Origin: Thermoplasmata archaeon
GTDB lineage: Archaea > Thermoplasmatota > Thermoplasmata > Thermoplasmatales > GCA-001856825
NCBI GenBank assembly: GCA_023256615.1
Contig: JAGDXO010000020.1
Span: 3,587 to 64,561, forward strand
DNA: 60,975 nucleotides
Direction of reading: 5' to 3'
Below are positions 51,610 to 56,031 of the stretch, in pieces; positions within the stretch are counted from its first letter, which is position 1; each line of letters begins with the position of its first letter. The position numbers and the translations under genes were made by a program. The notes below the pieces were generated by a model. The model was not told the origin of the DNA, did no database searches, and was given only the letters and a program-made list of their open reading frames with translations.

Positions 51610-52095
51610 ATGATTTCCTCTACACCCCTAATAGTTCATAAAAATGAGGATGATCCGAAGAAATGCACAGCGAGAAAGTTAAAGAGACTTAATCTTGCTG
51701 AATTTATAGGGTTTATACCTAGAAGTGCCATAGTTCTTTATCCTGATTCAGAGATCAGGATTTCTAAGAATGATTCTTCCTTCAGGTATCTTCTAGCAAT
51801 GGATGTTTCCTGGAAAAATATAGAAAATTATTCATTTAAGGGATATCAGGTAAGGTCTCTTCCTTACCTTTTAGCTGCCAACCCGGTTAATTATGGAAAA
51901 CCTTATAAATTATCTACTGCCGAGGCTATAGCAGCTGCATATTACATTATGGACATGAAAGAAATTTCCTTGAAAATTTTAAATGTTTTTTCATGGGGCA
52001 TCCAGTTCCTGAATCTAAATAGAAACCCGCTAGAGGATTATGCTAAAGCTAGTAATTCAGATGAGATTAAAAAAATTGAATTGGAATATATCTAA
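51610..52095 (+). CDS. tsr3: 16S rRNA aminocarboxypropyltransferase Tsr3
   Basis: This 161-residue enzyme transfers an aminocarboxypropyl group from AdoMet to a small-subunit rRNA nucleotide during ribosome maturation. Family blocks are DPKKCTARKLKRL near the start, ALDxSWKN-like AMDVSWKNIE, and RSLPYLLAANPVNYGKPYKL followed by STAEAIAAAYYI. The ATG at 51610 gives the standard start and length. It overlaps the convergent PP-loop gene by four bases. Confidence 0.93.
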   Translation: MISSTPLIVHKNEDDPKKCTARKLKRLNLAEFIGFIPRSAIVLYPDSEIRISKNDSSFRYLLAMDVSWKNIENYSFKGYQVRSLPYLLAANPVNYGKPYKLSTAEAIAAAYYIMDMKEISLKILNVFSWGIQFLNLNRNPLEDYAKASNSDEIKKIELEYI

Positions 52096-53471
52096 TTCCA
52101 TTCTCCATTCTTTAATTTCGTGATTCCGTTTGTATAATGCTTCATTATATTCATCAATTTATCTTTAAAATCTTCTGGAATATAATTAGAATCGCAACAT
52201 TCAATGCAGTCATGAATTTTCTCAATGTGTTCATGAGGTTTTCCCACTTTCCCATTGCTCAATTTAAACATTGAGTGTTCTCTTTCATCATCATCCAGTC
52301 TATACAGCCTGTCCTTGTAATTATTTTTAAAATCATCTATATCCTCTTTTTTGTATTTAATAAGTGCAGGATCTATTGAGTTTGCTAGTAAGAATAGGAG
52401 AACTCCGTTGCATTTGCTGCATTTTCCACACGGTACTATATTGCCGCCCTCATAATGGCAACTGTGACATGATCTTTGAAGGGCAGCTATTTCTGGATAT
52501 CTGCTGAAAAGGATTCTCTCTTCCACATATCCGGATATGCCCCTGACCGCTGAAAAAAATATGGTGTTAAATTCCTTTATCTTGAAATATTCTGTGATCT
52601 TTTTATCAAATTCCATAGTCTGATCATATATACCGTAGAAATGCCTTATACCATTTTCTGGTTTCATATTTCTGGGATCGTCAAATTCATCTCCTTTCAT
52701 AACGTAAGAAATTCTTAACGCTCGAATATATGGCAATATTGTAAATATGTATACTGGAAATATAAACAATTGGATGGGGTATGTATCCGACCACATTTTT
52801 AATGCTCTTTCATTTAGCGCACTCACCCTTAGGTTCATTTCTCTATAGAATCGGTCTACCGTAGTCCAAGCTCTAATGGTATTCGGATCATTTTTCATCA
52901 TGTAATCATAAGCGGTTTTTGCAGTTCTCCAATGACCACCTGACTCATTTACATATATTGGAAAAACTTCTGATCCTATTTCTTTCATCATACCGTAGGT
53001 AAGAAGACTTTCCTTTCCTCCACTTGATAAAATTGCAACAGATCCGCCACCTTTTATCGGTTTTTTAACATCTGAAAATTTGAACTTCATATTAGGGATA
53101 TATTCTGCCTCTTCTTTATCAGGTTTATCTGGTAATAATTCTTTCTTGAAAAATTCAGGCCTCTTTATTAGCTTGTTTACGTATACCTCCGTGCTGTTAA
53201 TTCTCATCATTTCTTGAAAAAAATTATAGTCTTCCTTGTCAACTGGAAATTCAGCCTCTATTTCTCTGGTAAAAAGGGAATAATTAACCAGTGGCGCTAT
53301 TGAAATCAATCTTGCATCCTCTACTTCTATATCCAAAGGTCTTGAATATTTGATGAGTAGCTCACTAATTTCCCCATCAACCACATAACTTATTTTTATT
53401 TTACTCTTTGATATTTCTGGTTCCTTGATTGTAATATTGTTTATTGATACATACTTCCCTTCTTTATTCAA
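52092..53471 (-). CDS. PP-loop ATP-pyrophosphatase-fold protein, MurL-like
   Basis: This 459-residue protein has an N-terminal beta-rich part (about 1-135), a PP-loop SSGGKES (149-155) inside VAILSSGGKESLLTYGM, and a cysteine cluster C335xxC338...C348xxC351xxC354 (PCGKCSKC). The PP-loop binds ATP and releases pyrophosphate while activating a carboxylate or base. The domain order resembles MurL, which epimerises a glutamate residue in Xanthomonas peptidoglycan precursors, and more distantly QueC. It overlaps the DUF1611 gene by eight bases. In a cell-wall-less archaeon the substrate must differ. Family placement is moderate. Confidence 0.6.
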   Translation of the reverse strand: MNKEGKYVSINNITIKEPEISKSKIKISYVVDGEISELLIKYSRPLDIEVEDARLISIAPLVNYSLFTREIEAEFPVDKEDYNFFQEMMRINSTEVYVNKLIKRPEFFKKELLPDKPDKEEAEYIPNMKFKFSDVKKPIKGGGSVAILSSGGKESLLTYGMMKEIGSEVFPIYVNESGGHWRTAKTAYDYMMKNDPNTIRAWTTVDRFYREMNLRVSALNERALKMWSDTYPIQLFIFPVYIFTILPYIRALRISYVMKGDEFDDPRNMKPENGIRHFYGIYDQTMEFDKKITEYFKIKEFNTIFFSAVRGISGYVEERILFSRYPEIAALQRSCHSCHYEGGNIVPCGKCSKCNGVLLFLLANSIDPALIKYKKEDIDDFKNNYKDRLYRLDDDEREHSMFKLSNGKVGKPHEHIEKIHDCIECCDSNYIPEDFKDKLMNIMKHYTNGITKLKNGEWN

Positions 53472-54501
53472 TCTTTTCCACCACTTCAGCCAATTTTGTT
53501 ATTTCATTAAGTGGCTCAATAACAGGTATTCCATATTTGGTTTCATATTCTTTCTTGATTTTATCTATTTCATTCTTTGTCATTTTTTCAGTGTTCAAGG
53601 TTATTGCTACTACCTTTTTCCCAGAAAGTAATTGTAATATTGTAATTACCCTTCCCACATCAGGCATGGGATAATTTTCAAATCCATCAAGGAACTTCCT
53701 TCCAGGGGCGTCTTGAAGTATAATTGCATCTGGTCTTCCTGCTGCAATTATTTCGAAGCTGCCTGGATAGGCTGGATGAACAACGGAGCCCTGACCTTCC
53801 AGCAGAATGAAATCTGGTCTCCTTTCCTCCCAGGCCCTAACTACTTCGTGCTCTATTGCTCCTGCTACGAAATCATTAATTGTTGCATCTATAACAGTTC
53901 CATATTCAACTCCCTGCATCCATGCTGTCTGTCCAGTTCCAATCATTTCTGCCTTTTTTCCACGTTTTTGAAGCTCTTTCCACAGCAGAATAGTAGTGGT
54001 CCTCTTTCCAATTGCACTGTCAGTCCCGAGAATTGCTATTTTTTTAGCTCTTACTTCCTCTATTTTACCCGTGAATGGGAACTTCCTGTCTCTGAAAATT
54101 TTTCTGACATCTATTAATTCTACTCCTTTTTCATTCGCTAATTTTGAAATTTCAGGGTCCTCAGATAGAAATTCATGCAGACCGTTTACCACACCGAGAC
54201 CTTTGTTTATCGCATCTATGATAATTTTCCTGTATTCTGGAGGCAAATAACCGCCATCTGTTGCTGCCCCTATCGCAATGTATTTTGGTGAATAGATCAT
54301 TGCCTCTTCTAGCTTTGTAACTATGGGAATATTCTTTTTCCTTCCCTCAAGAAATTCTCCTGCGTCTCTTCCAGCCAGCTTGGAATCGATGACAGCAACT
54401 ACCTGATATCTCCCAGAATACCTCACCAGACCATGAGCAGTTTTACCATAAGTGCTCCCAAATACACCTTCTGCGAGTACCACTATCTTATCCATTATCA
54501 A
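53464..54501 (-). CDS. DUF1611 family P-loop protein (DgcN-like)
   Basis: This 345-residue protein has an N-terminal Rossmann-like domain (VVLAEGVFGSTYGKTAHGLVR) and a C-terminal P-loop domain with GTDSAIGKRT (159-168), ILLEGQGSVVHPAYPG and LQDAPGRK. These are DUF1611 features. A proteobacterial and haloarchaeal member, DgcN, acts as a D-glutamate N-acetyltransferase in D-glutamate breakdown; others are placed with dipeptide epimerases. It overlaps both neighbours (4 and 8 bases). With the MurL-like protein it suggests glutamate-stereochemistry or amino-acid modification. Confidence 0.75.
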   Translation of the reverse strand: MIMDKIVVLAEGVFGSTYGKTAHGLVRYSGRYQVVAVIDSKLAGRDAGEFLEGRKKNIPIVTKLEEAMIYSPKYIAIGAATDGGYLPPEYRKIIIDAINKGLGVVNGLHEFLSEDPEISKLANEKGVELIDVRKIFRDRKFPFTGKIEEVRAKKIAILGTDSAIGKRTTTILLWKELQKRGKKAEMIGTGQTAWMQGVEYGTVIDATINDFVAGAIEHEVVRAWEERRPDFILLEGQGSVVHPAYPGSFEIIAAGRPDAIILQDAPGRKFLDGFENYPMPDVGRVITILQLLSGKKVVAITLNTEKMTKNEIDKIKKEYETKYGIPVIEPLNEITKLAEVVEKIE

Positions 54502-55442
54502 GCCCTGCCAGTTATTACCGCAACATATAAATTTTCCTCAGGAAATTTTATTGTGTTCTTAATTGCCTCAAGAGGCGCTGTACTAGCTGGAAGCACGTTC
54601 AATCCTATTTCTTTTTTTATCAGGCGTTTGTAGTATATCATTTTGTTATCTGAAATATATTCCGCAAATCCATTTGATTCCCTTATTGCCTTTAACCCTA
54701 TTTCACCATCATATGCATGAGATGCAATTAACGGTTCATTTATTGATGACTCGACAAGACTCTCAGGTTTCAGGTCCCTCAATTGAGACTTATCCTTGAA
54801 GGCCTTGACGATAGGATTACCACCAGTAGTGCTGGCACCTAACATCCTAGGGATTTTGTCTGTGAGACCAGCCTTTTTTAAATTTAGGAAACCTATGTAT
54901 ATGCCTGCAAGCGTTGTTCCATTTCCTACCGGAACTGCCACAGCATCTGGAGCCCTGCCGAATTGCTGAAATAACTCGTAAGAGATCCTTGAATATGCTT
55001 CATAGCTGAGGTCTGTAGTTGCGTTTCCAGGATTTGCGTCATACCAGTTGTTGTCATGGGCAATATCTCTGCTCATTTCCACTGCATCTTCGTATGCCCC
55101 TGATACCTCATTGACAATGGCCCCATTTTGCCTCATCACTTCAACCTTTGGAGTATGGTATCTCTCGGGGACAAATACTTCTGCCTTCAAACCAAAAAGT
55201 CTTGAATAATAGGACATAGCAATTCCATAGTTACCGCAAGTACCTATCGATACTGTATCATACCCTTTCTCAATTGCATACTTCACATGTCTTAAGGCAG
55301 CCCTATCCTTATGAGTACCTGATGGGTTTACACCTTCAAATTTCAAAAAAATTTTCTTGAAGGAGAAGAGCTGCTCTAAATACTTGGCACGGAAAACAGG
55401 CGTGCCACCTGGATCAGAATCTTCGCTCGCTTCTTCCATCAA
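54498..55442 (-). CDS. PLP-dependent fold-type II enzyme, threonine synthase-like
   Basis: This 314-residue enzyme has the PLP lysine in SGTHKDRAAL (Lys45), the loop TCGNYGIAMS, and the glycine-rich phosphate site VPVGNGTTLAG. The pattern is closest to threonine synthase, but it is short, lacking about 40-90 residues relative to most threonine synthases, and related folds include cysteate synthase and diaminopropionate or serine/threonine lyases. It is the first gene of the three-gene cassette with DUF1611 and the PP-loop protein. Substrate is open. Confidence 0.75.
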   Translation of the reverse strand: MMEEASEDSDPGGTPVFRAKYLEQLFSFKKIFLKFEGVNPSGTHKDRAALRHVKYAIEKGYDTVSIGTCGNYGIAMSYYSRLFGLKAEVFVPERYHTPKVEVMRQNGAIVNEVSGAYEDAVEMSRDIAHDNNWYDANPGNATTDLSYEAYSRISYELFQQFGRAPDAVAVPVGNGTTLAGIYIGFLNLKKAGLTDKIPRMLGASTTGGNPIVKAFKDKSQLRDLKPESLVESSINEPLIASHAYDGEIGLKAIRESNGFAEYISDNKMIYYKRLIKKEIGLNVLPASTAPLEAIKNTIKFPEENLYVAVITGRA

Positions 55443-55593: not shown

Positions 55594-56031
55594 GTGTTAA
55601 TGTTTGAAATCCTCGTCAGACTGAAAAACTCACCCTCTGGTCAGGACCTCGACCTTACCCTTTTTGAGTTCCTATCTGATATTGGCTATATAGAAGAAAG
55701 AGGAAGTAATCTTTATCCAGGGATAAAACAAAGTATACCGTTCAGGCTTTTCAAGGAATGCTTTCTAGAGAGGTCCGATAAGGTTTGGCCCGTTAATGAA
55801 CTGCTTGTCTATCTGAATACTTCTAAACCAACTTTATACAGATATCTTAACCGGCTAAAGTCTCTGGATATAATACAGGAAGTTCAGCTTGGTAAAGAAA
55901 AAGGTTATGTTTTAAGATACAATTCACTTTCCCTAGCCTGGAATTTCGTGGAGTCAAATGTAAAGATTGCCATGGACAATTACAGGAGGACTATTGAAAG
56001 TATACAGAAAATGGTTGGTGAAAAAAAATGA
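55594..56031 (+). CDS. Winged-helix regulator
   Basis: This 145-residue protein carries a winged helix in its middle: WPVNELLVYLNTSKPTLYRYLNRLKSLDIIQ, with the recognition helix KPTLYRYLNRL, and a C-terminal helix that may dimerise. The N-terminal 50 residues are not recognised. The start may be GTG 55594 or ATG 55600 (MFEILVRLK). It overlaps the next gene by four bases and is divergent from the PLP/DUF1611/PP-loop cassette, so it may control that cassette (inference). Confidence 0.78.
   Translation: MLMFEILVRLKNSPSGQDLDLTLFEFLSDIGYIEERGSNLYPGIKQSIPFRLFKECFLERSDKVWPVNELLVYLNTSKPTLYRYLNRLKSLDIIQEVQLGKEKGYVLRYNSLSLAWNFVESNVKIAMDNYRRTIESIQKMVGEKK

Follow-up and report, generated by a model that had tools for sequence, protein, structure and literature searches.

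An unnamed family of PP-loop ATPases lies at the centre of a three-gene cassette that recurs across several archaeal phyla. We studied this cassette in a 60,975-nucleotide stretch of a Thermoplasmata genome (GenBank assembly GCA_023256615.1, contig JAGDXO010000020.1, positions 3,587 to 64,561; our contig C61), hereafter the window, in which a pyridoxal-phosphate (PLP) enzyme, a DUF1611 protein and the PP-loop protein are encoded in tandem. Our favoured explanation, to which we assign nearly even chances, is that the cassette inverts the alpha carbon of an amino acid, either free or at the C-terminus of a small peptide, with an N-acyl form as the intermediate. The main argument comes from gene partnerships: we propose that the PP-loop enzyme inverts C-alpha because, in other genomes, the place beside the DUF1611 gene is often filled by enzymes that do so.

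A conserved three-gene unit

The genes are transcribed head-to-tail on the minus strand from position 55442 to 52092, in the order PLP, DUF1611, PP-loop. With their TTG starts, the PLP and DUF1611 genes overlap by 4 bases and the DUF1611 and PP-loop genes by 8 (Table 1). An earlier note on this DNA, prepared from the letters and a list of open reading frames, had described just such an overlapping unit, and we recovered all three reading frames, both overlaps and every motif that it named (SSGGKES, the cysteine cluster, GTDSAIGKRT and Lys45).

Scanning GTDB genomes yielded 242 relatives of the PP-loop protein, and loci were counted among the best 80 of the 242. In 74 of these 80 loci the PP-loop gene has DUF1611 next to it, and in 59 the DUF1611 gene borders the PLP gene; the trio is thus conserved, which the note had proposed to test across Thermoplasmatales and other archaea. 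The order PLP, DUF1611, PP-loop is kept in almost all of the first 31 loci (30 with the gene) and of 20 wider loci, and the median intergenic distances within the cassette are -4 and -1 bases. We also sampled 293 genomes of the phylum, 57 of which match the PP-loop protein, or 56 once a genome carrying only a paralogue is excluded. DUF1611 is present in 55 of these 56, and a strong PRK06381-type PLP gene occurs in 53 of the 56, versus 2 of the 237 genomes lacking the PP-loop gene. The relatedness of the genomes inflates these co-occurrence counts and their P values; losses and relocations are nonetheless seen. Because gene order is kept within and beyond the phylum, spacing is short and the genes co-occur across genomes, the cassette is a real unit rather than a chance association.

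The hosts include Thermoplasma, Acidiplasma, Cuniculiplasma, the I-plasma group, sediment Thermoplasmatota, Bathyarchaeota and MCG-6, as well as Candidatus Methanodesulfokora (Korarchaeota) and another member of the Thermoproteota. The earlier note had tied the cassette to the absence of peptidoglycan. This link was lost once the cassette was found in Bathyarchaeota, Korarchaeota and, in part, a myxobacterial metagenome-assembled genome (MAG), a host range that rules out wall-lessness as the common factor. On the contig of that Myxococcales MAG (L129:6941-9071), the PP-loop gene (38% identity) is convergent with a GNAT gene, and neither DUF1611 nor the PLP gene lies within 7 kb; its presence there may reflect either transfer or mis-binning. 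The PP-loop protein had no relatives in a search of viral contigs, and plasmid tblastn searches with it and with the f24 paralogue found none.

The I-plasma clade retains an intact PLP gene that is more divergent and, in the genomes checked, sits elsewhere in the genome. Remnants of its first 42-58 codons persist upstream of DUF1611 (L110:5762-5908, L112:5762-5923, L109:4653-4778 and L114:2748-2936). Apparent in-frame stops in the relocated genes were rejected as such, being the normal ends of slightly shorter genes.

DUF1611 has alternative partners that invert C-alpha

Both domains of the DUF1611 protein exceed their Pfam cut-offs (101 bits for the N-terminal and 216 bits for the C-terminal domain), and the protein retains motifs common to three solved structures. 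We propose that it is an amino-acid N-acyltransferase, by analogy with DgcN, which NCBIfam describes as an N-acetyltransferase of the D-glutamate pathway. No DgcA-type enolase racemase lies beside the window cassette. In genomes that carry DUF1611 and lack the PP-loop gene, 20 loci were read, several of them ending at contig edges, and a C-alpha-inverting enzyme is encoded near DUF1611 in 9 of the 20. An enolase-superfamily epimerase accounts for seven of the nine, its best NCBIfam match among the three models scanned being L-Ala-D/L-Glu epimerase or DgcA. Five of these seven are directly adjacent to DUF1611 on one strand, and two are separated from it by one gene. The remaining two loci hold the ornithine racemase Orr.

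The Orr arrangement, in which Orr (415 and 407 bits) comes directly after DUF1611, occurs in two genomes of the Thermoplasmatota that lack the PP-loop gene (L215:159-2302 and L216:1070-3250). The pairing is apparently unreported before. Within family f24, both arrangements, with the PP-loop gene and with Orr, are represented.

Proteins of three unrelated types thus occupy the slot beside DUF1611: two of the types invert C-alpha, and the third is the relative of MurL. These partners, along with neighbours that act on D-residues, lend support to the stereochemical theme of the earlier note. Glutamate, which it listed among the possible substrates, is not established; one of the alternative partners is an ornithine racemase.

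A PP-loop protein of the QueC/MurL branch

Pfam has no family that matches the PP-loop protein. Its PP-loop motif, SSGGKES, spans residues 149-155, and its cysteine cluster reads C335-x2-C338-x9-C348GKC351SKC354. Aligning 23 relatives revealed a set of invariant or near-invariant motifs: SSGGKES, NESGGHWxTA, W(T/S)xxDRFY, G(S/D)EFDD, YDQ and QRSCH...PCGxCxKC. In a broader set, C335, C348, C351 and C354 are invariant, while C338 is not and is missing in family f23. The SGGxDS-type loop appears as SSGGK[ED]S, and the pattern used is matched by 73 of 77 members. CxxCxxC is present, preceded by the first invariant cysteine at 12 residues in 73 of 77 members; C338, taken instead, gives a spacing of 9 residues (the QueC site is C-x8-CxxCxxC).

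An AlphaFold2 model of the protein is confident (pLDDT, the predicted per-residue confidence, of 90), and its top structural matches in the PDB are QatC, Cap9 and QueC. PDB sequence searches with the protein, the family profile and a paralogue returned nothing meaningful. The signatures of true QueC, YxQxHxxE, VPxRN and YPDC (PMC13329287), are each found in none of the 77 members. Grouping with QueC or tRNA-thiolation enzymes was what the earlier note had offered as a refutation of its idea. The fold is indeed QueC-like, but the catalytic motifs are absent, and in NCBIfam neither thiolation nor QueC families matched the sequence.

In NCBIfam scans, MurL was the only family reported for the Korarchaeota member (L169, E 6.2e-6) and the Thermoproteota member (L182, E 1.7e-4). 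Weak MurL matches, with E-values up to 10, were also obtained for 9 of the 23 members (best E 0.0037), and the matched region corresponds to MurL positions 231-355. Applied to the 293 genomes, the MurL model produced only weak matches, and none in 14 controls. The protein is accordingly placed among the PP-loop enzymes of the QueC/MurL branch, a little closer to MurL, with a kinship at the level of the superfamily.

A second, shorter PP-loop family was observed in sediment Thermoplasmatota (L034:2916-4151 and L035:437-1855); it matches MurL at E 5e-6 and 5e-4, and DUF1611 is absent from the neighbourhood that was read. The better of these paralogues (5e-6) aligns with the PP-loop family profile over 227 columns (E 5e-16).

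A possible route of inversion

The substrate of MurL ends in a glutamate with an acylated amino group and a free alpha-carboxylate; MurL epimerises this residue, working in one direction and converting one ATP to AMP, with an adenylate as the proposed intermediate (PMC8788868). QueC and Cap9 activate a carboxylate with ATP (PMC13279940). The smallest compound that looks like the end of the MurL substrate is an N-acyl amino acid, and a DUF1611 acyltransferase alongside a MurL-like enzyme would make chemical sense because of that resemblance. We infer the catalytic steps, the substrate and the direction from the sequences and the gene order. The DUF1611 protein would first N-acylate an amino acid, as the related DgcN does with D-glutamate. 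The PP-loop enzyme would then spend ATP to adenylate the alpha-carboxylate of the N-acyl amino acid; the adenylate would acidify the alpha-hydrogen, for example through an oxazolone-like state, and reprotonation would take place on the opposite face, followed by hydrolysis of the adenylate as proposed for MurL. Finally, the PLP enzyme would act on the amino acid released or supplied, by elimination or replacement at the beta or gamma carbon, drawing on the product or on the same metabolite pool. A deacylase would presumably be needed, and, as to direction, we slightly prefer the removal of a D-residue.

Several observations weigh against this route. The equivalog cut-off excludes the family from MurL proper: its best MurL scores are 15-25 bits, confined to about 100 residues, against a threshold of 700. 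The kinship that the earlier note had claimed holds as a remote relationship for the family, through L169, L182 and the paralogue, but not for the window protein alone, which has no MurL match in NCBIfam. The DUF1611 protein scores 171.5 bits with the DgcN equivalog model, below its cut-off of 480. The cassette and an enolase epimerase do not strictly replace each other, since in some genomes they occur next to one another, and a fold-type II PLP enzyme has no obvious place in an epimerisation pathway. A D-aminoacyl-tRNA deacylase gene lies directly upstream of the cassette on the same strand in 27 loci. Its adjacency, once a candidate for strong evidence, was downgraded to weak because the gene is nearly universal (265 of the 293 genomes) and other neighbours (Tsr3, a RimI-like GNAT) are translation genes. 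Last, the PADLOC QueC model also matches the PP-loop family, in 5 of 23 members (best E 0.017).

These PADLOC matches, although weak, favour the main rival to our explanation, in which the PP-loop enzyme is a ligase or amidase like QueC or QatC, joining an adenylated carboxylate to ammonia, an amino acid or a protein N-terminus with no epimerisation, and in which the acid or the amine would come from DUF1611 and the PLP enzyme. The structural matches point the same way, and members of the QueC family do conjugate a carboxylate to an amine (PMC13279940). However, all 77 members lack the three QueC signatures, the family matched by NCBIfam is MurL and not QueC, and DUF1611 pairs with racemases in other genomes. 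On balance, we consider such a ligase unlikely, though well within the range worth weighing.

The PLP enzyme is a diverged relative of threonine synthases

The third protein has a PALP domain (187 bits, above the Pfam cut-off) and matches the NCBIfam model PRK06381, 'threonine synthase', at 404 bits versus a cut-off of 266; nearly all strong PRK06381 matches in the phylum are the cassette's own enzyme. Its nearest solved relatives are also threonine synthases. These findings could suggest an amino-acid biosynthesis unit built around the PLP enzyme as a true threonine synthase, whose substrate the DUF1611 and PP-loop proteins would activate, for instance by standing in for homoserine kinase. 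The enzyme nevertheless falls short of the ThrC model TIGR00260 (105.6 versus 167.1 bits), and all 56 members of its subfamily share an invariant CGNYG loop. In an alignment with the Thermus threonine synthase, Ser155, Arg160 and Thr88, which we take to be its phosphate-binding residues, are changed to Ala, Ser and Tyr. Moreover, DUF1611 and the PP-loop gene remain paired where the PLP gene has been relocated or is missing. The earlier note had named, as one refutation of its idea, that this be the only threonine synthase of its genome. This is not so in the complete relative G050, which has two further threonine synthases above their own cut-offs; the window's genome (a 1.2 Mb assembly, 84% complete) could not decide the matter. 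A threonine unit is thus improbable in our judgement. We read the protein as a diverged threonine-synthase-like enzyme, whose substrate is probably not O-phosphohomoserine.

Relation to known systems

Each protein of the cassette resembles a described system and departs from it. Like MurL, the PP-loop protein combines a PP-loop with a C-terminal cysteine-rich region and matches part of the MurL model weakly; unlike MurL, whose partner is MurD2, it is paired with DUF1611, is encoded in archaea and scores 25 bits at best against 700. With QueC, QatC and Cap9 (PF06508) it shares the fold, the PP-loop and the CxxCxxC metal motif, but it lacks the QueC catalytic motif, stays below the QueC gathering score and has additional N- and C-terminal regions. 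The DgcN-DgcA pathway for D-glutamate (NF041892, NF042940), which work cited in PMC12363236 describes in marine bacteria and halophilic archaea, likewise couples an acyltransferase of the DUF1611 family to a C-alpha-inverting enzyme. There, however, the inverting partner is an enolase-superfamily racemase, whereas here it would be a PP-loop ATPase, and the cassette's DUF1611 protein lies under the DgcN cut-off. The PLP enzyme has the fold family, Lys45 and asparagine loop of PRK06381 and fold-type II threonine synthases; it differs in its CGNYG form of the loop, in the changed positions that we assume to bind phosphate, and in coexisting with two other synthases in G050.

Acylation combined with inversion is already known chemistry. 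The unnamed protein family at the centre has no Pfam entry or assigned function, yet it is carried with its partners across several archaeal phyla. Current annotation labels the PLP enzyme a 'threonine synthase' (NCBIfam) and DUF1611 a domain of unknown function. Our search of a literature library found nothing that treats MurL and DUF1611 jointly, and a recent survey of the QueC family makes no mention of MurL (PMC13329287). With somewhat less confidence than an even chance would warrant, we suggest a widespread archaeal system of amino-acid inversion, built from a DUF1611 N-acyltransferase and an ATP-driven, possibly one-way, epimerase of the MurL superfamily. If true, this would give a MurL relative a role outside peptidoglycan synthesis, extending ATP-dependent peptide epimerases from the bacterial cell wall into amino-acid metabolism. 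DUF1611 would become a module that plugs into three unrelated kinds of C-alpha-inverting enzyme, and archaea would gain a route for making or removing D-amino acids that current annotation has missed. Hosts of the cassette in culture include Thermoplasma and Acidiplasma.

Genomic neighbourhood

The surroundings of the cassette vary by lineage while its core stays constant. The RimI-like GNAT gene is convergent with it in about 26 loci. Together with the deacylase and Tsr3, this neighbourhood could place the cassette in translation, with the PP-loop protein acting on RNA and the unit modifying tRNA or another translation component, and the PP-loop fold is common to RNA-modifying enzymes. We regard this as the least probable of the readings considered, given the constant core amid changing neighbours, the lack of NCBIfam matches to thiolation or QueC families, and partners, DUF1611 and the PLP enzyme, that are metabolite enzymes. 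The Tsr3-like gene is not thought to be a member of the cassette. The winged-helix gene at 55594, which the earlier note had considered as a regulator, may be a local one: it is kept beside the cassette in 13 loci, all from the window's own small clade, alongside unrelated genes.

In nine loci from two phyla, the cassette is accompanied by an enolase resembling L-Ala-D/L-Glu dipeptide epimerase (motifs KxK, DAN, ADE and DLD; DxD), and in all nine a protein with HSDE...HH motifs, encoded next to the enolase gene, flanks it as well. This protein (L054:7119-8495 and relatives) is 450 residues long and matches nothing in Pfam, NCBIfam or the PDB; its model is poor (pLDDT 55), and it possibly represents a new family of zinc carboxypeptidases or deacylases. 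Such company would fit the scavenging of D-amino acids or murein peptides, with the PP-loop protein as a peptide epimerase or ligase working beside the dipeptide epimerase and the carboxypeptidase-like protein. Most loci, including the window, have neither gene nearby, however, and the carboxypeptidase-like protein is the one without a database match or a good model, which makes scavenging a rather improbable account of the cassette as a whole.

Among neighbours that recur within about 7 kb of the cassette, we noticed no MurD-like gene, and no queuosine, Qat or CBASS genes were seen among the conserved ones.

Table 1 Genes of the cassette and its immediate neighbours in the window
Feature	Coordinates	Strand	Details
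PP-loop ATPase, remote MurL/QueC relative	52092..53471	-	459 aa, TTG start; SSGGKES and CxxC-x9-CGxCxKC metal site
DUF1611 protein (DgcN superfamily)	53464..54501	-	345 aa, TTG start; N-terminal Rossmann-like domain, C-terminal P-loop domain with GTDSAIGKRT
Fold-type II PLP enzyme, PRK06381 subfamily	54498..55442	-	314 aa, TTG start; Lys45, CGNYG loop
Divergent winged-helix-like gene	55594..56031	+	Neighbour kept only in the window's clade (L106-L116, L140)
Tsr3-like gene	51610..52095	+	Convergent; 4-base overlap with the PP-loop gene; frequent housekeeping neighbour in Thermoplasmatales

Inspection by eye also turned up deoxyhypusine-synthase-like genes a few kb from the cassette in L117, L122, L182 and L032, which represent Bathyarchaeota, another member of the Thermoproteota and family f23.

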